Virus record (IMG/VR): IMGVR_UViG_3300025810_000025
Location: 1 to 36,407 of that record
Source: a virus
Length of the DNA: 36,407 nt
Reading direction: 5' to 3' (one strand)
Positions 688-28,671 of this stretch are shown in pieces; position 1 is the stretch's first letter; every line of letters starts with the position of its first letter. The notes under the pieces are model-generated. The model was not told the origin of the DNA and did not search any database. It saw only the letters and a list, made by a program, of their open reading frames with translations. Position numbers and translations under genes: made by a program.

Positions 688-761
688 GGGGATGTAGCTC
701 AGTTGGTTAGAGCAGGACTCTTATACAGTCAAGGTCATGGGTTCAAGTCCCGTCATCCCTA
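688..761 (+). tRNA. tRNA-Ile (anticodon TAT)
   Basis: Cloverleaf read by eye. The acceptor GGGGATG/CATCCCT has a terminal G-T pair, the D-stem is GCTC/GAGC and the T-stem ATGGG/CCCGT with loop TTCAAGT. The anticodon loop is CTTATAC with TAT at 722-724. The anticodon stem GGACT/AGTCA has one G-A mismatch at the 27-43 position. Discriminator A; 3' CCA is not encoded. It would read AUA, which most bacteria read with a lysidine-modified CAT tRNA, so a genuine TAT anticodon is uncommon. Confidence 0.88.
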
Positions 762-811
762 CAACTCGTGTGAGAGTAATTAATGTTACTGTTATGTTAC
801 ATTAAACCATG

Positions 812-861
812 GGGATCTCAGAAGTTTTTTCAATAGATAAAGAAAAAGCCTATGAGATCCC
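812..861 (+). promoter_or_regulatory. Start-codon hairpin with internal late-like box
   Basis: GGGATCTCA (812-820) is perfectly complementary to TGAGATCCC (853-861), which includes the TG of the ATG at 852. An inner stem TTTTTTC/GAAAAAG (825-831/842-848) can stack inside it. The loop holds TAGATAAA, one mismatch from the TATATAA-type late box. Transcripts entering from upstream would bury the start codon. Transcripts starting inside the loop would lack the left arm. Confidence 0.55.
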
Positions 862-1322
862 TTTTATTTTGTTTACTATCGTTACTATACTTTACCTCAT
901 CGGCGCAATCCAAAGATACCTCAGAAAGTTGGGGTGTAGAGATGGCCGCTAACATATCATACTACAATTCCCTATCAGTAAGTATAGAGAAATCATTTAA
1001 TTACGGTAAGTGGGTTTTTGGTCCTAGGGTAGAGTTACTTAATATCTTTGGATCCGAAACATACCAGGGTGATGATTCAACTTATGCTATGACCAGTCAA
1101 GTAAGAATAAGACTTGCCCAAGTAGAGTATAAGATTAACCCATCTGTTAGAATTGGCATTGCTCCTTTTTGGTTGCTAGGGCCACTACCGCGAAACAGTT
1201 TCTACAAAACACCAACATCGGTGTATGCACATATACAACTTAGAGAAAATCTATCATTGGAAACTTCATTTACTTCTTCACAAAAAGAAGCAGTACAAAT
1301 CTCTGTTAGAAAAATGCTTTAA
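852..1322 (+). CDS. Secreted predicted outer-membrane beta-barrel protein
   Basis: A 156-aa protein with a clear signal peptide: short basic start, hydrophobic core LLFCLLSLLYF, and a SSAQ-type cleavage region near residue 18-20 as is common in Bacteroidota. The mature part has alternating polar/apolar stretches typical of amphipathic beta strands (SVRIGIAPFWLLG, YAHIQLRENLSLETSF). It ends in ISVRKML rather than the usual terminal aromatic. I infer a small outer-membrane barrel. Phages can use such proteins to alter the host surface or exclude competitors, but the exact role is not visible. The start codon sits in a 9-bp inverted repeat, suggesting translational control. Confidence 0.6.
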   Translation: MRSLLFCLLSLLYFTSSAQSKDTSESWGVEMAANISYYNSLSVSIEKSFNYGKWVFGPRVELLNIFGSETYQGDDSTYAMTSQVRIRLAQVEYKINPSVRIGIAPFWLLGPLPRNSFYKTPTSVYAHIQLRENLSLETSFTSSQKEAVQISVRKML

Positions 1323-1341
1323 ACCAAAAAAGGTTCTTCCA

Positions 1342-1353
1342 TATAATAATAAA
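1342..1353 (+). promoter_or_regulatory. Putative late promoter box
   Basis: TATAATAATAAA, 7 nt before the ATG at 1361. The same box occurs at 83-94 and 3963-3974. Confidence 0.5.
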
Positions 1354-1360
1354 CAAAGTT

Positions 1361-1672
1361 ATGGCAAAACTACTAAAGAAAAAATACCGCAGAGAAAAAG
1401 ATGAGTTAGTTAAGGCTCTTTTTAAGGATGGGCGAAGAACTGTTGTTCTATGTATTGAAGTTTTAGAAACATCTAAGTTAAAAGGGTACCTCATCTATGA
1501 GTGCACATACCTAGATAACGGTAAGGAAAAGGTTATCAACATTATTGCACAAGACATTACTGATGCTATGTCAAAGTTGGATGGGATGGTAGATTCAGGC
1601 ATTCCTCAACAAACTGCTAACCTTATCTTAGGTAGTGAGTCATTTGTACAAAACAGATTAACCGATGAATAA
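1361..1672 (+). CDS. Hypothetical protein (upstream of thioredoxin)
   Basis: A 103-aa protein with a very basic N-terminus (MAKLLKKKYRREKDELVKALFKDGRR), then alternating beta strands (TVVLCIEVLE, GYLIYECTYLDNGKEKVINIIAQD) and a helical C-terminal third. The fold looks like a small alpha/beta protein; no family is recognised. It has a late-type box immediately upstream and overlaps the thioredoxin gene by 8 nt, so the two are probably co-translated. Nothing shows a shared function. Confidence 0.6.
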   Translation: MAKLLKKKYRREKDELVKALFKDGRRTVVLCIEVLETSKLKGYLIYECTYLDNGKEKVINIIAQDITDAMSKLDGMVDSGIPQQTANLILGSESFVQNRLTDE

Positions 1673-1952
1673 AATGACACAAGAAGATTTGAATGGCCCA
1701 CGGGTATTAGTTGACTTTTGGGCATCATGGTGCGGACCATGTAAAATGATGAAACCTAGAATGGAAAAATTTGCAGAAGAACAATCCGAAGTAGAGGTAG
1801 TCTTTGTAAATGTAGACCAAGAAACTGAATTGGCTCAAAAGTATGGAATCAGATCTATTCCTACTACGGTCTATATGGAAAATGGCGAGGTTAAAGGTAA
1901 GAAGATTGGTAACCTTAGTGATGCACAAATTAAAGAATTAGCTCAAGTATGA
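1665..1952 (+). CDS. Thioredoxin
   Basis: A 95-aa thioredoxin-fold protein. The active site WCGPC is at residues 22-26, preceded by LVDFWAS. The buried-Asp strand (VLVDFW) and the cis-proline loop SIPT (Pro66) are present, and the C-terminal GEVKGKKIGNLS hairpin fits the family. It is slightly shorter than cellular thioredoxins (about 105 aa), missing part of the first beta-alpha unit. It would reduce disulfides in host or phage proteins; in phages it could support ribonucleotide reductase or a polymerase, but neither gene is in this window. Alternative ATG at 1674. It overlaps both neighbours (8 nt upstream, 4 nt ATGA downstream). Confidence 0.93.
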   Translation: MNKMTQEDLNGPRVLVDFWASWCGPCKMMKPRMEKFAEEQSEVEVVFVNVDQETELAQKYGIRSIPTTVYMENGEVKGKKIGNLSDAQIKELAQV

Positions 1953-2137
1953 ACCTCATCCAAATAGCCATGCTATATTCCCTAGTTGGAATAGCCTGTG
2001 CCTTTTCTTTTGAGAACATTTATTCACGAATGGAAATGGAACCTCCTTCAGTAGGAGAAAGGGTTATGTGGATTTTCCTATGGCCTTTCTTTGTATTAGT
2101 TTTCATTTGGGGAATGTTTTTTAAAGATGACGACTAA
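1949..2137 (+). CDS. Small two-pass membrane protein
   Basis: A 62-aa protein with two hydrophobic helices (about residues 3-20 and 39-57) separated by a short polar loop containing SRMEMEPPSVGER. It ends FFKDDD. The ATG overlaps the thioredoxin stop in an ATGA junction, so it is translationally coupled to it. No family is recognised. The thioredoxin linkage could mean electron transfer to the membrane, but that is speculative. Confidence 0.6.
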   Translation: MNLIQIAMLYSLVGIACAFSFENIYSRMEMEPPSVGERVMWIFLWPFFVLVFIWGMFFKDDD

Positions 2138-2196
2138 AACTCTTTCAGAAAACTATTCTACCTGTTATAATTATACTGTAACAAACAAATTAAAAA

Positions 2197-2418
2197 ATGG
2201 ATAAAGTATTCGCCCCCCTTGGAACTGCATTTCTACTCCTAGTAGGTGTAGCCATATTGGCCCTCATCGCGGCGTGGCCTGTTCAATTACTGTGGAACTC
2301 ATGTTTAGTGCCTGCAGTAAATCCTATCAATGAAATCACCTTTTGGCAGGCTTTAGGTATTAACCTTTTGGCAAGCCTAATGTTTAACTCAGGTGTACGA
2401 TCCAAAAGCAGTGAATAA
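2197..2418 (+). CDS. Small membrane protein with LWN...ITFWQALGINLL motif
   Basis: A 73-aa protein with two hydrophobic stretches (about 8-33 and 47-64) around a conserved-looking segment LLWNSCLVPAVNPINEITFWQALGINLL. From general knowledge, short membrane proteins with a 'LWN..P...ITFWQA.GL' pattern recur in many phages, but their function is unknown to me. A TATAATTATA stretch at about 2166-2175 could be its promoter. No SD. The tRNA-Leu gene follows within 10 nt. Confidence 0.6.
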   Translation: MDKVFAPLGTAFLLLVGVAILALIAAWPVQLLWNSCLVPAVNPINEITFWQALGINLLASLMFNSGVRSKSSE

Positions 2419-2426
2419 TAATGAAT

Positions 2427-2515
2427 GCCGCTGTGGTGAAATTGGTAGACACGAGGGACTTAAAATCCCTTTCGCCGAACGGTGAGTGCCGGTTCGAATC
2501 CGGCCAGCGGTACCA
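2427..2515 (+). tRNA. tRNA-Leu (anticodon TAA)
   Basis: A class II tRNA with a long variable arm (TCGCCGAACGGTGAG region). Acceptor GCCGCTG/CAGCGGT, anticodon stem AGGGA/TCCCT, loop CTTAAAA with TAA at 2461-2463. T-arm GCCGG/CCGGC with loop TTCGAAT. Discriminator A and encoded CCA (2513-2515). Reads UUA, a frequent codon in this AT-rich genome. Confidence 0.95.
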
Positions 2516-2533
2516 ATCTTTTAAACAACTATT

Positions 2534-2803
2534 ATGACAGAAACACAATTTAAATCTGGAGAGAAGGTAATGTACCTTAAGAAAATGGCAATTGTTCCAC
2601 ATCCTGAAGGTAAGACTGACCGCAACGGAGAAGTACTTCCTGTATTCAGGGATACTTGGAAAGAAGGAGTTATCCTTTCGTACAGTAGCCATAACAACAA
2701 ATACTGGGTTCGTCCTGCCAACTGGGAAAGTTATAAAGATGCAATCTGCGGAGAACGTTATTATGACTTCCAAGCCGATGCTGAAGATATTAAGCCTATC
2801 TAA
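2534..2803 (+). CDS. Hypothetical protein
   Basis: An 89-aa soluble protein beginning MTETQFKSGEKVMYLKKMAIVPHPEG. The first half looks like an SH3-type small barrel (GEKVMYL, GVILSYSSHNNKYWVRP). The second half is mixed with many aromatic residues (NWESYKD, ERYYDFQ). It follows tRNA-Leu by 18 nt with no SD and ends 2 nt before the next ATG, so it forms a pair with the acidic 87-aa protein. Family not recognised. Confidence 0.55.
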   Translation: MTETQFKSGEKVMYLKKMAIVPHPEGKTDRNGEVLPVFRDTWKEGVILSYSSHNNKYWVRPANWESYKDAICGERYYDFQADAEDIKPI

Positions 2804-2805
2804 TA

Positions 2806-3069
2806 ATGACTATTAAGGTTAAAGAAACTCACGAATACGAAATGCCAATGAATATTGAAGTTTTAGAATCAAAAGAAGTTTGGTGGGCGACCACTATAGA
2901 GTATGATATTCGTACTGATGATGGCGAAGAGCTAACCTTCCGAGTAGCTGAAACGCCTAAAGGGACAGACTTCTATGTTCTTACCGACGACGGTTGGGAA
3001 AGTCTTGAAGATGATAATCCGATCCATGACGCCTTCTATGAAGAATGGTGTGAAGGTACACTGGATTAA
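2806..3069 (+). CDS. Hypothetical acidic protein
   Basis: An 87-aa, strongly acidic protein (C-terminal half rich in Asp/Glu: DDGWESLEDDNPIHDAFYEEWCEG) with beta-strand-like segments around residues 15-60. It starts 2 nt after the preceding stop, so it is co-transcribed. High acidity in a small phage protein can mean a DNA mimic or a binder of a basic partner, but I see no motif that shows this. A structured intergenic segment follows. Confidence 0.55.
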   Translation: MTIKVKETHEYEMPMNIEVLESKEVWWATTIEYDIRTDDGEELTFRVAETPKGTDFYVLTDDGWESLEDDNPIHDAFYEEWCEGTLD

Positions 3070-3076
3070 ATAACTT

Positions 3077-3172
3077 GGAAAGGGTAGTGAAGCTGTTAGG
3101 TTGGTACCATTGAAAAAGGGTTCATAGTAAAGCCAACAAACCAGGAACCCCGAAAGACCCGAAGCCCTTTCC
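3077..3172 (+). ncRNA. Candidate structured RNA with possible pseudoknot
   Basis: A 96-nt intergenic segment closed by a perfect 8-bp stem GGAAAGGG (3077-3084) / CCCTTTCC (3165-3172). Inside, GTTGGT (3100-3105) can pair with GCCAAC (3132-3137). GGGTTC (3118-3123), in the loop of that helix, can pair with GAACCC (3145-3150) outside it, giving an H-type pseudoknot. No ORF or tRNA fits. It lies 8 nt before tRNA-Arg. Assignment as ncRNA is inferred from pairing alone. Confidence 0.4.
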
Positions 3173-3180
3173 TCTATCAT

Positions 3181-3254
3181 GGACCAGTAGCTCAGTTGGA
3201 TAGAGCATCTGCCTTCTAAGCAGACGGTCACAGGTTCGAATCCTGTCTGGTTCA
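3181..3254 (+). tRNA. tRNA-Arg (anticodon TCT)
   Basis: Acceptor GGACCAG/CTGGTTC, D-stem GCTC/GAGC, anticodon stem TCTGC/GCAGA with loop CTTCTAA (anticodon TCT), T-stem ACAGG/CCTGT with TTCGAAT loop. Discriminator A; CCA not encoded. Reads AGA. Confidence 0.96.
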
Positions 3255-3270
3255 CACTAAAAAAATCGTA

Positions 3271-3327
3271 GTACCGCAAGGGAACAAGGTGAAAGGTACA
3301 CTCACCGCAGGTTAAGCGATATCCTGC
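3271..3327 (+). ncRNA. Candidate structured RNA between tRNA-Arg and tRNA-Gly
   Basis: A compact gap with several possible helices. GTACC (3271-3275) pairs with GGTAC (3295-3299). GGTGA (3288-3292) pairs with TCACC (3302-3306), which interleaves as a pseudoknot. GCAGG (3307-3311) pairs with CCTGC (3323-3327). An alternative first hairpin is CC-GCAA-GG, a GNRA tetraloop. No reading frame of note. It could be a small RNA or a tRNA-processing element. Confidence 0.35.
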
Positions 3328-3331
3328 ATAT

Positions 3332-3407
3332 GCGGAAGTAGCTCAGTTGGTAGAGCGATAGCCTTCCAAGCTATAGGTCGCGGGTTCGAACCCCGTCTTC
3401 CGCTCCA
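3332..3407 (+). tRNA. tRNA-Gly (anticodon TCC)
   Basis: Acceptor GCGGAAG/CTTCCGC, D-stem GCTC/GAGC, anticodon stem ATAGC/GCTAT with loop CTTCCAA (anticodon TCC), T-stem GCGGG/CCCGT with TTCGAAC loop. Discriminator T (usual for bacterial Gly) and encoded CCA (3405-3407). Reads GGA. Confidence 0.96.
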
Positions 3408-3411
3408 AGTA

Positions 3412-3422
3412 AATATATAAAT
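3412..3422 (+). promoter_or_regulatory. Putative late promoter box
   Basis: AATATATAAAT, 16 nt before the ATG at 3439 and 4 nt after the tRNA-Gly CCA. Confidence 0.45.
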
Positions 3423-3438
3423 CAAATTAATTAAAGAT

Positions 3439-3882
3439 ATGATAAACATTTATGGAACTGGCGAATGGGCCAAGAAAATTACCTCACTTCTTAATGTGGG
3501 AGAATATGGTCAATATGATTCTACTAATTATGACCAAGCACAAGCAGACTTACCTTGGGTGATTGCATTAGAAGAAGGGAATGACCGTCTTACTGTTGCT
3601 AATGGAATATTGGATGGATCTACCTTTTATGAGCTTTTTGATGGATGTAAAAACCTCAACGACGTAACAGTTGGTGAAGGCTTAGTTGTTGGTTGCTGTT
3701 CTTTAGTTAGACCGGGTACTGTTATTGGTGACCAGGTTTACATTGGTGCTAATTCAGTAATTGATATTAATTGTACCATTGAGGATGGTGTAACCATTGG
3801 AGATAATGTAACCGTGTATGAGGGTGTTACTATTCCTGCTAATACTGAGGTACCTTCTGGTTCGGTTGTGAAAAATTCCTAA
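3439..3882 (+). CDS. Hexapeptide-repeat (left-handed beta-helix) acyltransferase-like protein lacking His
   Basis: A 147-aa protein. The N-terminus MINIYGTGEWAKKITSLL resembles the nucleotide/sugar-binding start of NeuD/PglD-type acetyltransferases. From about residue 72 there are [LIV]-G-x(4) hexapeptide turns (VIGDQVYIGANSVIDINCTIEDGVTIGDN), i.e. a left-handed beta helix. It is shorter than NeuD enzymes (about 210 aa). The family's catalytic His is replaced (IDINCT where a VEHDC-like motif is expected), and I find no histidine in the whole protein. It could be an inactive relative, a structural helix or a sugar-binding protein. It is followed by a strong terminator. Confidence 0.7.
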   Translation: MINIYGTGEWAKKITSLLNVGEYGQYDSTNYDQAQADLPWVIALEEGNDRLTVANGILDGSTFYELFDGCKNLNDVTVGEGLVVGCCSLVRPGTVIGDQVYIGANSVIDINCTIEDGVTIGDNVTVYEGVTIPANTEVPSGSVVKNS

Positions 3883-3909
3883 TCCTTCGAGGTTCTATTC
3901 TCTTAGGTT

Positions 3910-3934
3910 AAGACCGGTTTATCCGGTCTTTTTT
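3910..3934 (+). terminator. Intrinsic terminator
   Basis: AAGACCGG (3910-3917), loop TTTAT, CCGGTCTT (3923-3930), then a T-tract to 3934. It follows the hexapeptide-repeat gene by 27 nt and ends the first operon-like stretch. Confidence 0.85.
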
Positions 3935-3962
3935 AGTCTGTAAACAATACTAAGAAATTGCA

Positions 3963-3974
3963 TATAATAATAAA
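3963..3974 (+). promoter_or_regulatory. Putative late promoter box
   Basis: TATAATAATAAA directly downstream of the terminator and 38 nt before the ATG at 4013. Same box as at 1342-1353. Confidence 0.5.
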
Positions 3975-4012
3975 TGGTGCTGTTCACATCATAAAAATAA
4001 AACAAAAGAAAT

Positions 4013-4357
4013 ATGGAAACACTTTATTTTACTTTAGGTATACTTACGGTCCTGGTCATCATCGGGGTTGTGGGTGTTGTTAAGGTTTGGAACAAAGTTT
4101 CGGCTTTAAGCTTAATTGAGAGAGATCTCACAGATCACATCAACGAGATAGCGGATGATGTAAATGATGAACTAGGAAAAATGCACGATGAATTGCATAA
4201 CAGAATGGATCAATTAGAACGCGACTTCCAAGGAGAAGCCAGTGAAATTGTAAGTATGATGGATTCACGATTTGATAAATTTGAAAACAAAGTCAATATA
4301 AGACTAGAGAAGGTTGACGCCACTATAGGAAATCTCTTAGTCAAATTCAATAAATAA
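4013..4357 (+). CDS. Membrane-anchored coiled-coil protein
   Basis: A 114-aa protein with one N-terminal hydrophobic helix (residues 5-25, LYFTLGILTVLVIIGVVGVV). A long heptad-patterned, acidic helix follows (LIERDLTDHINEIADDVNDELGKMHDELHNRMDQLERDF... to the C-terminus). The topology suggests a tail-anchored-like rod on the inner membrane. No family is recognised. Lysis regulators and spanin-like proteins can have this layout, but there is no lipobox or partner to support that. Two tRNA genes follow. Confidence 0.6.
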   Translation: METLYFTLGILTVLVIIGVVGVVKVWNKVSALSLIERDLTDHINEIADDVNDELGKMHDELHNRMDQLERDFQGEASEIVSMMDSRFDKFENKVNIRLEKVDATIGNLLVKFNK

Positions 4358-4376
4358 CAAACCGTGAACAGTACCT

Positions 4377-4449
4377 TGTCCCTTGGTGTAATTGGCAACA
4401 CGTCTGATTTTGGTTCAGAAGAGTGTAGGTTCGAGCCCTGCAGGGACAA
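4377..4449 (+). tRNA. tRNA-Gln (anticodon TTG)
   Basis: Acceptor TGTCCCT/AGGGACA (T1-A72 as is typical of tRNA-Gln), D-stem GTGT/ACAC, anticodon stem TCTGA/TCAGA with loop TTTTGGT (anticodon TTG), T-loop TTCGAGC. Discriminator A; CCA not encoded. Reads CAA. Confidence 0.93.
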
Positions 4450-4453
4450 CATA

Positions 4454-4528
4454 CGGGATGTGGCCTAGTCCGGTTACGGCGCCTGGTTTGGGACCAGGAG
4501 ATCGCAGGTTCGAATCCTGCCATCCCGA
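4454..4528 (+). tRNA. tRNA-Pro (anticodon TGG)
   Basis: Acceptor CGGGATG/CATCCCG (C1-G72 as in bacterial tRNA-Pro), D-stem GCC/GGC, anticodon stem CCTGG/CCAGG with loop TTTGGGA (anticodon TGG), T-stem GCAGG/CCTGC with TTCGAAT loop. Discriminator A; CCA not encoded. Reads CCA. The bS21 gene begins 14 nt downstream. Confidence 0.95.
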
Positions 4529-4530
4529 CA

Positions 4531-8188: not shown

Positions 8189-8220
8189 ATGATAGTTATT
8201 TTGATTATATATTCATGAAA
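8183..8220 (-). promoter_or_regulatory. Late promoter box within a start-codon inverted repeat (minus strand)
   Basis: On the minus strand AATATATAATC (plus 8203-8213) lies 14 nt before the ATG. TTTCAT upstream (plus 8215-8220) pairs with ATGAAA at the start codon (plus 8183-8188), so the box is inside a 6-bp A/T-rich inverted repeat. The promoter call is better supported than the hairpin. Confidence 0.45.
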
Positions 8221-12146: not shown

Positions 12147-12589
12147 AGATAGAAGCATTTACCGATATTCTTAAAAGTATAAGAAACTTATCTAATTCAT
12201 CCACTACAAAGGTTGGGTGTATGGCTTTAAGAAAAGACTTTAGTAAAATTGCTAGCTTTGGCTATAATGGATCTTATAGCGGAGCTGGCATTAATGATGT
12301 AACAGGAACAGAAGAAGAGTCCCTCACACCTGGTGAAAGTGGGTTTATCCATGCTGAGGTAAATATGATTGCTAAGTTTAAGGAATATGATCCTGAAAAC
12401 TATATCATTCTGCTTACCCTCTCACCGTGTAAGATGTGTACAAAGATACTAGTGAATGCCGGCTTTAAACATGTATATTGGATTGATGATTACCGAGACA
12501 TGGATCATTTAGTAATTTTCGATAGATGCGACATCACACACGGAAATATTTCTAAACTTATAAACGACTACCATTCTATAAAGGGCTGA
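12116..12589 (+). CDS. dCMP/cytidine deaminase family protein
   Basis: A 157-aa zinc deaminase. The HAE motif (His79, catalytic Glu81) and PCKMC (Cys105, Cys108) form the zinc site. VGCMALRKDFSKIASFGYNGSYSGAGI is the usual strand-turn before it. This is the order and spacing of the dCMP deaminase family, of which T4 Cd is a member. It would make dUMP for dTMP synthesis. The 31-nt overlap with the HAD gene and shared promoter support a nucleotide pool role. Possible alternatives are a tRNA or riboflavin-type deaminase, but the length and insert fit dCMP deaminase best. Confidence 0.88.
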   Translation: MDTKIQRLQIKIEAFTDILKSIRNLSNSSTTKVGCMALRKDFSKIASFGYNGSYSGAGINDVTGTEEESLTPGESGFIHAEVNMIAKFKEYDPENYIILLTLSPCKMCTKILVNAGFKHVYWIDDYRDMDHLVIFDRCDITHGNISKLINDYHSIKG

Positions 12590-25249: not shown

Positions 25250-26422
25250 ATGATTGAACAAGAAATCACGATCCAGCTTAGCGACGATCCATTTGACACA
25301 AAGACAGTAAAGGTACAGGTACCTAAAGGCACAAAACTATTAAGTAACGAATCATATACAGCTGAGGCTATTAAAATGTATCAACTAGCCGATGAGGAAG
25401 TTGACCGACTTCAAAAATCAGAAGAAGCAAATAATTACATAACACAAGGTGAAATAGTCCACATTAAGAAGATTAAGCAAATCATAGATGATGTGGAAGT
25501 TGAAACTAAAGTTGAAGCACTTATTGACATTTCACAGAAGAATACTGCTATTTGTGTGTTAACAAAAGAACCTAAAGAAATTGTAGACCAATTAGAGGTT
25601 GGGATGTCTGTTGATATAAAAGTAAAGAGACAATTAAGAGGGGTTCTTTATGCTTCAATCGCAGATGCATTAGAGGAAGTTAAAAGAAATGAAATCTATG
25701 CTGCAATAGGAGATAAGACGGTAGGATTTACCGGTTATGTTAAGGAACTAATACATGGTGGTTACTGGGTTGAAGTTGGTGGAGTTCAATGTTTTATGCC
25801 AGGATCTTTAGGTGGGTTAAATAAACTTTATGATTTTAATGTATTGGTTGGTAAAGAACTTATTGTAATGCCTATTACATACTCTAACGAAAAACAGACT
25901 ATCGTAGTTTCCCATAGAGAATATTTAAGAACTATGATACCTTCCACTGTTGAGTCGTTAAGAGAAAATATCAAAGATCATATTACAGGGTTTGTTACTG
26001 GTACTACTAAGTTTGGTATCTTTGCTGAATTTAATGAATGTCTTACTGGATTAATTCCTAAGAATGAAATAGATGAAGAGACTTTAGCCAAATTTGAAAA
26101 CCGTGAAATTAAACCAGGTGATGAAATTAGTTTTTGGACTAAAGAAATTATTTCAGAAAAGAAAATCATTTTAAGTCAACAAGGTCCTAAAGTTGATCTA
26201 TGGGACGGTGCTGAAGAAAAGTATAAACCAATGATGGTTACTGAAGGTAAAGTTACCAAGGTTACTAAGTACGGTGCATTTGTTGAATTAGAAAAAGGTA
26301 TTAGTGGACTTATACATAAAACCAAACTTAAAGATACTGAAGTTACTAAAGGAGACATGCTTCAAGTTAAGATCCAAAGTATCAATACATCAGATCGTAA
26401 GATTACAATGAACTTAGTATAA
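25250..26422 (+). CDS. Ribosomal protein S1-like protein with multiple S1 domains
   Basis: A 390-aa protein. An N-terminal beta/helix section is followed by about four S1-type OB domains: about 66-140 (divergent), 152-225 (GFTGYVKELIHGGYWVEVGGVQCFMPGSL), 240-305 (GFVTGTTKFGIFAEFNECLTGLIPKNEI) and 325-390 (EGKVTKVTKYGAFVELEKGISGLIHKTKL ... GDMLQVKIQSINTSDRKITMNL). It is shorter than bacterial bS1 (four to six domains). S1 domains bind single-stranded RNA, and S1 brings mRNA to the 30S. Its place in the late structural region and its own late promoter suggest production with virion proteins. It may help translate late mRNAs or be packaged. The S1 fold is secure; a ribosomal role is inference. 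Confidence 0.85.
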   Translation: MIEQEITIQLSDDPFDTKTVKVQVPKGTKLLSNESYTAEAIKMYQLADEEVDRLQKSEEANNYITQGEIVHIKKIKQIIDDVEVETKVEALIDISQKNTAICVLTKEPKEIVDQLEVGMSVDIKVKRQLRGVLYASIADALEEVKRNEIYAAIGDKTVGFTGYVKELIHGGYWVEVGGVQCFMPGSLGGLNKLYDFNVLVGKELIVMPITYSNEKQTIVVSHREYLRTMIPSTVESLRENIKDHITGFVTGTTKFGIFAEFNECLTGLIPKNEIDEETLAKFENREIKPGDEISFWTKEIISEKKIILSQQGPKVDLWDGAEEKYKPMMVTEGKVTKVTKYGAFVELEKGISGLIHKTKLKDTEVTKGDMLQVKIQSINTSDRKITMNLV

Positions 26423-26424
26423 CC

Positions 26425-26463
26425 TTTATCCTGGTTTGGAATATATAAACAAATCAGGATAAA
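26425..26463 (+). promoter_or_regulatory. Late promoter box enclosed by 9-bp inverted repeat at start codon
   Basis: TTTATCCTG (26425-26433) is perfectly complementary to CAGGATAAA (26455-26463), with a 21-nt spacer containing the late box AATATATAAAC (26440-26450). The right arm contains AGGA, an SD-like site 5 nt before the ATG at 26465. Read-through RNA from the S1 gene would hide the SD. RNA starting at the late box would lack the left arm. Confidence 0.65.
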
Positions 26464-26464
26464 T

Positions 26465-27763
26465 ATGTATTCTAACGAAGAACTTAATGCTATTCATTCC
26501 TCTAAGGTTGGATTTGAATTTGAATTTTTTGCAAACGAAAGTTTAGATTCAGCTAAAGAGAGTCTTTCCAGAACTCTTAATAAGAAAATTAGAATAGAGG
26601 AAAAGGCTCATAGCGATTTTGCTCCAACGGAAGATGTCTTTAAAATGGAGCCGGATAACTCTGGTGGTACAGGGATGATTGAACTAGTCACAGGACCTTT
26701 ACCTTTTGTTGAGGCAAAATTAATAATGGCCAAAACATTAAAATGGATAAGAGAAAATGGATCTACTAACGAGAGATGCTCTATTCATGTTAATCTTGCG
26801 TTTGACGGTAAAAAATTAGGACCTATTACCAATATGACCAAATTGGATATTGGTAAATTTGTTCTTAATTTTGATGAAGACCGCGTTTATGAAGCCTTTC
26901 CTAATAGAAAGGATTCTGTTTATGCAAAGTCAATAAAGTTTATTGTACCTTTAAGTGGAATGACACAGTCATCTCCGGGCAAAAACATCTGGAGAAATTA
27001 CGCATTTGTTAATGATAAGTATTATGGAATAAACTTTACTAAGATACCTAAAGGGTATATTGAGTTTAGGTATTTAGGTGGAAAGGATTATGAAAAGAAA
27101 TATTCCACTATACTTTCAATGACCGAGCATTTTATTACATCACTCTATGAAACTCTTGTTAATCCTAATTACACTGAAGATGATCTAAAGCTTTTGGATT
27201 CTGTATTAGAAAAACACAGACATGTAATAGAGTCCTATAAGACATATAAGGCATTCAAGGAAAAGTTCCCAGATATTCATTTAATGATTGATCTTAAAAC
27301 AGAAGACCAAATAGTGGAAATGTTTTATCCTCGCATAAGAGAAAAGATATTTGAGCTATTAACTAAAGCCGATATGAAAGAAGGTTTAATTAATTATGAC
27401 GCCGATAGTGGTAGAATACAAATTAAGGATGCCAAGCTTATGAGATGCTTTGAAGTTAAAGGAATTGATATTGTAGATTCTGTTATTCAAGGTAATATAA
27501 TTAACTGTGATATCTTTGGATGTGACATTAAAAATAGCTCAGTATTTGAATCTAACTTATTTGGGGCTACTGTAGTTGAGGATTGTAAAATTGAGGAATC
27601 TTATGTTAGCAAAAATGTAGTATGTGAAGATAGTTACGTCTTTGGTAAAAGAGGTGTATTTAGCGGTGAGATGGTAGGTGGCATATTTAGACAAGGTAGA
27701 GCTACAGATTTTGCAAGATTCAGTAAAGATACTGAAGTAATAGAGATAGAAAAAATTAAATAA
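26465..27763 (+). CDS. Amidoligase-family protein with C-terminal beta-helix repeats
   Basis: A 432-aa protein. GFEFEFF (16-22), IELVTGPLPF (72-81, Glu73), CSIHVNLAFDG (His108, Asn110) and YIEFRYLGGKDYEKK (Glu200, Arg202) match the amidoligase/COOH-NH2 ligase family (glutamine-synthetase-like fold), which forms amide or peptide bonds using ATP. Residues about 325-420 (FEVKGIDIVDSVIQGNIINCDIFGCDIKNSSVFESNLFGATVVEDCKIEESYVSKNVVCEDSYVF) are pentapeptide/beta-helix-like repeats. It may modify host peptidoglycan or a virion protein; the substrate is unknown. It lies between an S1-like gene and structural genes, with translation possibly controlled by a hairpin. Confidence 0.72.
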   Translation: MYSNEELNAIHSSKVGFEFEFFANESLDSAKESLSRTLNKKIRIEEKAHSDFAPTEDVFKMEPDNSGGTGMIELVTGPLPFVEAKLIMAKTLKWIRENGSTNERCSIHVNLAFDGKKLGPITNMTKLDIGKFVLNFDEDRVYEAFPNRKDSVYAKSIKFIVPLSGMTQSSPGKNIWRNYAFVNDKYYGINFTKIPKGYIEFRYLGGKDYEKKYSTILSMTEHFITSLYETLVNPNYTEDDLKLLDSVLEKHRHVIESYKTYKAFKEKFPDIHLMIDLKTEDQIVEMFYPRIREKIFELLTKADMKEGLINYDADSGRIQIKDAKLMRCFEVKGIDIVDSVIQGNIINCDIFGCDIKNSSVFESNLFGATVVEDCKIEESYVSKNVVCEDSYVFGKRGVFSGEMVGGIFRQGRATDFARFSKDTEVIEIEKIK

Positions 27764-27765
27764 AG

Positions 27766-28617
27766 ATGGCAAACAAAAGTTGGTGTAACCCAGATGCGGC
27801 TGAATGTTTAGATGCTTTAATCAAACAGATCAATGATGACTTAACTGTAGGTTGTCAAATACCTTTTACGGTTCCTAAAAAAGAATTGGCTAGAATTATA
27901 GATAGGGCAAAGGATTACTTTTATAAAATCTATGAAGATAGTGTAGAAGAAATGTTTATTGCTTTACCTGCATCTGCTTGGGCCGAAAAGGATTTTAGAC
28001 AAGGAATCAGCCATAATAGTGGAGGTAATACTTTATCAGAAGCAGATGTAAATAACTCAAGAGGTGTGGTTAAAATGCCAGATACTGTATGGGCAGTTAA
28101 TAATGTTTTTGAATTAAACGGTTTTTCTGGTGAAGATGGTGGCTTTGGTGATTATTCTTTTTCTGGTATGGACCCAGATTTTGCATTAGATAAATTTATA
28201 TACTCTGACGTTTATGGTGCAGGTATTGGTTCAGAGGAACTTATGTATTATGTAATTAATTCTAAGTTTATTGATAATGCAAGACAGGTATTACAGCCAC
28301 AAATTTCTTATAACTATAATAGATTAACAAAGAAGCTTAGATTTATGGGAAAATTACCAGATCGCGGCGCTTGTGTTTTCCAAGTTTACAATACTATCCC
28401 TGATTGTAATTTATTTCAGGATGAGGCCTTTATCCGTTACTGTATCGGTATGGCCAAAATACAGCTATCTAGAATACTAGGAACTTTCCAATTTAACTTA
28501 CCTGGTAATATTACTATAAACTACGATTTAATAGCTGGAGAAGGACGTGAAGAGATTGATAGGATTGTTGAAGAGATTAAAGGCGATGAAGGTGTTGACT
28601 ACTTCTTCACCGGTTAA
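27766..28617 (+). CDS. Putative virion neck/connector or baseplate protein
   Basis: A 283-aa protein starting 2 nt after the amidoligase gene. The N-terminal helices (CLDALIKQINDDLTV..PKKELARIIDRAKDYFYKIYEDSVEEMFIALPASAW) and C-terminal RYCIGMAKIQLSRILGTFQFNLPGNITINYDLIAGEGREEIDRIVEEIKGD resemble proteins placed near baseplate and neck genes in large myoviruses. The GEGREEIDRI end is recurrent there. The specific T4 counterpart is not clear (gp13/14-type neck protein or a wedge component). Structural by context. Confidence 0.55.
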   Translation: MANKSWCNPDAAECLDALIKQINDDLTVGCQIPFTVPKKELARIIDRAKDYFYKIYEDSVEEMFIALPASAWAEKDFRQGISHNSGGNTLSEADVNNSRGVVKMPDTVWAVNNVFELNGFSGEDGGFGDYSFSGMDPDFALDKFIYSDVYGAGIGSEELMYYVINSKFIDNARQVLQPQISYNYNRLTKKLRFMGKLPDRGACVFQVYNTIPDCNLFQDEAFIRYCIGMAKIQLSRILGTFQFNLPGNITINYDLIAGEGREEIDRIVEEIKGDEGVDYFFTG

Positions 28618-28644: not shown

Positions 28645-28671
28645 GAGAATATATAATAAAAGAATATTCTC
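28645..28671 (+). promoter_or_regulatory. Late promoter box overlapped by 8-bp inverted repeat at start codon
   Basis: GAGAATAT (28645-28652) is perfectly complementary to ATATTCTC (28664-28671), which ends 1 nt before the ATG at 28673. The late box AATATATAATAAA (28648-28660) overlaps the left arm and loop. RNA started here would lose the left arm. Confidence 0.6.
28648..28660 (+). promoter_or_regulatory. Putative late promoter box for the gp25-like gene
   Basis: AATATATAATAAA, 12 nt before the ATG at 28673. The consensus matches the other boxes. Confidence 0.55.

Follow-up and report, generated by a model that had tools for sequence, protein, structure and literature searches.

The window, by which is meant the whole 36,407-nt stretch analysed here, is a 36.4-kb viral fragment (IMG/VR record IMGVR_UViG_3300025810_000025) in which a gene for an S1-domain protein is followed, after a gap of 42 bases, by an amidoligase-like gene, with the gap forming the stem of a hairpin (Table 1). 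The match of the amidoligase-like protein to its Pfam family lies marginally below the cutoff, while the ortholog at locus L076 passes it (E 4.5e-5). Its predicted structure is a moderate model (pLDDT 73.8) with weak matches to glutamine synthetase (E 8.7e-3, probability 0.92) and to pentapeptide-repeat proteins, and the assignment as an amidoligase enzyme is therefore tentative. Further upstream, at 10.2-12.6 kb and on the same strand as the amidoligase-like gene, are genes for a ligase, a polynucleotide kinase and a dCMP deaminase, and six tRNA genes (Ile, Leu, Arg, Gly, Gln, Pro) lie close to the left end of the window, at 688-4529. The product of the S1 gene carries its two S1 domains in a phage group that apparently does not use Shine-Dalgarno sequences, and could function in the translation of phage mRNA.

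Table 1. Features of the S1-amidoligase locus; positions are those of the window unless a relative is named.
Feature	Position	Strand	Remarks
Late-type box of S1-domain gene, AATATATAA	25213..25221	+	82 sites in related loci
S1-domain protein gene, 390 aa	25250..26422	+	two S1 stretches; PF00575, E 1.3e-21; putative source of read-through RNA
Hairpin left arm, TTTATCCTGGTTTG	26425..26438	+
Hairpin loop, GAATATATAAA	26439..26449	+
Late-type promoter box in loop, AATATATAA	26440..26448	+	strand-specific intergenic motif
Hairpin right arm, CAAATCAGGATAAA	26450..26463	+
Predicted RNA start from loop promoter	26453..26457	+	T4 spacing, box at -13 to -6
AGGA in right arm	26456..26459	+	pairs with left-arm TCCT; not conserved as ribosome site
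Amidoligase-like gene, 432 aa	26465..27763	+	PF12224, E 2.8e-4; proposed regulated gene
Inserted gene, 191-aa ORF (L021/L089)	L021 5387-5962
Inserted gene, 135-aa ORF (L039/L040)	L039 5542-5949

The hairpin is real and bigger than first described. An earlier note, made from the sequence of the window, had reported a perfect 9-bp inverted repeat at 26425-26463; the repeat is indeed there, but the 9 bp are only the outer portion of a 14-bp stem that includes one G·U pair, and the AGGA that the note had placed inside the right arm is found there. The minimum free energy of the RNA from 26415 to 26490 is -18.5 kcal/mol (z -4.4), and none of 200 shuffled sequences was equally stable. Of simulated 36-kb sequences, 13.5% (about one in seven) contain a stem of 13 bp or more somewhere, and because such a stem alone is not very rare, it is location and conservation that carry the argument: the hairpin surrounds a promoter box, directly precedes the ATG, and is kept in relatives. 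The AUG of the window pairs only weakly in the fold, whereas in some relatives, L137 for instance, the AUG itself is paired.

As had also been claimed, the inverted repeat encloses a late-type box, which lies in the loop 25 nt ahead of the amidoligase-like ATG. This box does not match the T4 late consensus TATAAATA, the closest T4-like 8-mer being TATAAACA at 26444-26451, and since AATATATAA differs from that consensus the box is termed late-type rather than filed as a T4 late promoter. It is called a promoter on account of its placement in gene gaps, its distribution in G001, a 181-kb relative, and the presence in relatives of a sigma factor of the gp55 family. On the + strand of the window, AATATATA occurs at nine sites, all within or bordering intergenic gaps and mostly with a start codon 22-27 nt downstream; the - strand has two copies, one in a gap at 8213 ahead of the sole - strand operon and one intragenic. 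In related loci, the box of the S1 gene mostly stands 37-39 nt ahead of the S1 ATG. In G001, the same box precedes the portal and head maturation protease genes, among others, and is nearly absent from about 77-120 kb, where glycosyltransferase and thymidylate synthase genes are found. Two box promoters of the window, at 12589 and 18650, have GGCTGAATATATACAAAAAATAGT in common, and the ORF after the former has a TTG start, with its first in-frame ATG only at about 12688.

The gp55-family late sigma factor (phrog_234) was found in G001 (E 3.8e-14) and in the huge phage LR756500 (E 1.7e-12), both being genomes of relatives, while the window is a fragment of its own genome. The likeness to the gp55/gp33/gp45-dependent late promoters of T4 extends to a lone TATA-like element roughly one turn ahead of the RNA start and to AT-rich DNA downstream; the differences are the box sequence itself and the gp45 clamp family (phrog_223), which was not found in close relatives and whose only match was in LR745206, a negative that is not taken as absence because the records of close relatives are mostly fragments. 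If the spacing of T4 late promoters applies (PMC2988020), RNA from the loop promoter would begin at 26453-26457 and have a leader of 8-12 nt. Opening of the start region is predicted to cost 14.1 kcal/mol in a long RNA entering from upstream and 2.0 kcal/mol in this short RNA, in agreement with the expectation that a stable stem would form in the longer RNA only; the corresponding costs are 20.5 and 1.7 in L137, and 16.4 and 1.4 in L127.

Orthologs from IMG/VR supplied 42 distinct leaders with a box, in all of which ATATATAAA is unchanged and the distance from box to ATG is 24-28 nt. The commonest arms among these leaders are TCCTGGTTTG...CAAATCAGGA, and unrelated sequences stand at the same place in L076/L127 (ACCAGGTTTAA...TTAAACCTGGT), L137 (GTAATATTGTAATTTG...CAAATTACAATATTAC, 16 bp) and L143 (TGGGCCGC...GCGGCTTA); in L083/L140 and in L129, the arms are likewise replaced with pairing kept. 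Covariation of MAFFT columns was set aside because a one-base difference in loop length between lineages shifts the left arm in the alignment, and was replaced by an alignment-free arm-swap test in which each left arm is combined with right arms taken from other lineages. For eight lineages, the energies of the lineages' own arms sum to -113.4 kcal/mol, whereas the mean over permutations is -48.0 kcal/mol and none of 20,000 is as low, and for all 42 leaders the sum is -548 against -392 (sd 15), with none of 5,000 as low. Since related leaders are not independent, the weight should be put on the eight-lineage result. Conservation of the structure by compensatory change is evident from this permutation test, and supports maintenance of the stem by selection; as judged from these comparisons, the hairpin has been long maintained while the sequences of its arms were swapped wholesale several times.

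On a tree of the protein, leaders with the hairpin occur on nearly all branches, with a minimum of six changes when weak stems are scored as absent, and leaders that lack a strong stem fall mainly into two groups. One subclade has lost the stem, which is thus not essential. In three leaders that lack a strong stem (L087, L089 and L040), an extra gene is found between the S1 and amidoligase genes, whereas the S1 gene adjoins the amidoligase gene directly in hairpin-bearing leaders. It could be guessed that the insertion caused the loss of the stem, but L038, L041 and L042 have neither an insert nor a strong stem, so insertion is not the sole route. In distant homologs (LR756500 and other huge phages), no hairpin was seen by eye, and the S1 gene of LR756500 does not immediately adjoin the amidoligase homolog. 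A profile scan aimed at remoter relatives mostly returned the same contigs, and a DNA pattern of box plus start yielded few additional relatives.

An internal control is provided by four box promoters that recur in the same contigs. The median duplex energy around the amidoligase box is -15.7 kcal/mol, with 89% of cases below -9, as against -4.1 (3%) for the box of a gp25-like gene, -3.3 (1%) for that of the S1 gene, and -1.7 (0%) for that of a third ORF. Likewise, the median cost of opening the amidoligase start region is 10.4 kcal/mol in the long RNA, 1.6 in the short RNA, and 4.6 when the upstream part is shuffled; the S1 gene and the third ORF have no such excess and the gp25-like gene a slight one. 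Because only the amidoligase box has a strong stem, the stem belongs neither to the promoter as such nor to AT-rich gaps, and a chance repeat is ruled out by this control together with the arm-swap test. As a separate observation, the gp25-like baseplate gene (28673) is preceded by a weaker stem, GAGAATAT at 28645-28652 pairing with ATATTCTC at 28664-28671; here the left arm includes the late box itself, and the stem is partially retained in relatives. A conserved stem is likewise present at the start region of T4 gene 25 (PMC3014915). Moderate stems (-7.6 to -10.4 kcal/mol) surround three boxes of G001, at 28061, 133057 and 156507 (L275 8060, L280 13057 and L281 16506), and are possible further examples of the same switch.

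The AGGA had been taken for a ribosome site hidden by the right arm, and this part of the original description does not hold. The hairpins of L076/L127, L137 and L143 have no AGGA, nor do leaders that lost the hairpin, such as TTAGATAGTGAATG, and Shine-Dalgarno sequences are not enriched in G001, where a tetramer in range is found at 3.7% of 160 starts compared to 4.7% after shuffling; pieces of T4 gave 61% and 15%, respectively. For the 35 starts of the window, the values are 11.4% and 7.6%, a sample too small to decide. Given its absence from hairpins with other arms and from hairpin-less leaders, and the lack of Shine-Dalgarno enrichment, the AGGA is unlikely to serve as a ribosome site, and is best read as the pairing partner of TCCT. 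What is predicted to be buried in the window is the start region; the AGGA is unconserved among relatives.

The nearest phages of known host infect mainly Bacteroidota (the Prevotella Lak phages, Tenacibaculum pT24, and phages of Flavobacterium and Chryseobacterium), and we infer that the host of the window phage belongs to this group as well. Bacteroidota ribosomes are not reliant on Shine-Dalgarno sequences, and the structure of the start region matters (PMC6847099). In Flavobacterium, which is without such sequences, initiation is tuned by start-region structure, and in the case of Flavobacterium johnsoniae by A-rich leaders as well (PMC6847099). That tuning is general, whereas a gene-specific switch is proposed for the window, whose host is itself inferred.

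We favour, with a probability of roughly 0.7, a promoter-choice switch like that of T4 genes e and soc, acting in cis on translation and silencing read-through RNA. RNA entering from the S1 gene and beyond, which would be produced in quantity, has both arms and would form the 14-bp hairpin, hiding most of the 15 nt ahead of the amidoligase AUG, so that little protein would be made from it. RNA from the loop promoter would lack the left arm and, with its short, unstructured leader, would be translated. Since these phages seem not to use Shine-Dalgarno sequences, the block would consist in burial of the whole start region rather than in hiding of a ribosome site.

The geometry of T4 e and soc, which the earlier note had recognized, stands: the box is in the loop, and the predicted 5' end at 26453-26457 drops the left arm. 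In T4, the hairpin switch of e and soc silences early RNA (PMC3014915, PMC2988022). The leader of gene e folds as AATACCTTC-TATAAATACTTA-GGAGGTATT-ATG, and resembles the window in having the late box in the loop, the right arm over the start region and a late RNA that is devoid of the left arm (PMC3014915), as well as a hairpin soon after the upstream gene, with a gap of 37 nt in T4 and 42 nt in the window. Unlike the window group, which has no sign of Shine-Dalgarno use, T4 buries a strong Shine-Dalgarno sequence (AGGAGG); its long RNAs are early, whereas the S1 gene upstream in the window has its own late box; and its gene encodes a lysozyme for lysis rather than an amidoligase-like protein. 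Other systems in which the upstream-made RNA is untranslatable and the late RNA free are T4 soc, gene 49 and I-TevI, I-TevII and I-TevIII (the late box of I-TevII being flanked by folding arms, CCTCGTAT and ATACGAGG) and mobE of Aeh1, but these belong to phages of enterobacteria and Aeromonas, concern other genes, and have Shine-Dalgarno-based starts.

What the switch would discriminate between is less certain. The original proposal that the silenced RNA is early read-through from the S1 gene is not supported: a conserved late box precedes the S1 gene itself, and RNA reading through from that gene is thus probably late as well. It is conceivable, though we hold it somewhat below an even chance, that the hairpin is a Shine-Dalgarno-free switch between two late RNAs, by which the amidoligase would answer solely to its own late promoter and its dosage would be set within the late programme, the early/late boundary being unaffected by the hairpin. 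A narrower version of the promoter-choice reading, strict timing of the T4 type, in which the hairpin would silence read-through RNA of the early or middle period and hold the gene off until the late promoters become active, seems rather unlikely. This is the documented logic of T4 e, soc, 49 and I-TevI, and the nucleotide-metabolism genes upstream are on the same strand, but late boxes at 12589, 17166, 18650, 24838 and 25213 intervene before the amidoligase, that of the S1 gene being conserved, and no convincing early (host-type) promoter could be placed ahead of the S1 gene. Counts of the host-type pattern used to locate early transcription, TTG-N19-23-TANNTTTG, were slightly above those in shuffled sequence and mostly within coding sequence, and are uninformative. 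That the purpose is to stop a protein-modifying enzyme from being produced from the wrong RNA is speculation.

One consideration that speaks against silencing is that a ribosome finishing at the S1 stop codon, 2 nt from the left arm, could melt the stem. If terminating ribosomes did so, the two genes would be translationally coupled, with the amidoligase yield of the bicistronic RNA following that of the S1 protein, and the stop codon is indeed within a few nucleotides of the arm in the window and in its closest relatives. Across hairpin-bearing lineages, however, this gap ranges from about 2 to 29 nt, and T4 gene e, at a similar distance from the upstream stop (nudE-e, 37 nt), is reported to be silent on the long RNA, making coupling improbable.

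A near-perfect dyad on both sides of a promoter could also be a two-fold repressor site in the DNA, as in the autorepression of T4 I-TevI, which represses its own late promoter, but the wholesale replacement of arms with pairing retained makes such an operator very unlikely. Moreover, in 31 of 35 hairpin leaders the sense strand gives a more stable fold than its complement, which points to selection at the RNA level, and 23 distinct stems contain 21 G·U pairs against four A·C mismatches, many of the G·U pairs tracing to one ancestral site. Equally improbable is a role for the hairpin at the end of the S1 RNA, in processing, stability or termination, for although it starts 2 nt past the S1 stop in the window and hairpins can protect 3' ends, its position is tied to the box rather than to the stop, and the right arm reaches the AUG in L137 and L076/L127, which a 3'-end role would not need. 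An intrinsic terminator was rejected, there being no T run after the hairpin and no entry for it in a terminator scan.

The principle of a promoter within a hairpin is already known from T4; new are the strength of the comparative evidence and the setting, namely uncultured, T4-distant phages with another box, another gene and no indication that Shine-Dalgarno sequences are used. A search of the literature available to the analysis found no paper describing such a switch in phages of this kind, which is not proof of absence. By sequence comparison alone, the T4 arrangement is seen to extend far beyond the close relatives of T4, to uncultured phages of a marine family related to huge phages of Bacteroidota, in which it has been kept as the underlying sequence was replaced, and a predicted late promoter motif can now be proposed for this phage group. 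If the interpretation is correct, the switch operates without a Shine-Dalgarno sequence, and the locus would then make it possible to test cleanly whether translation can be silenced by start-region structure alone in bacteria that lack Shine-Dalgarno sequences.
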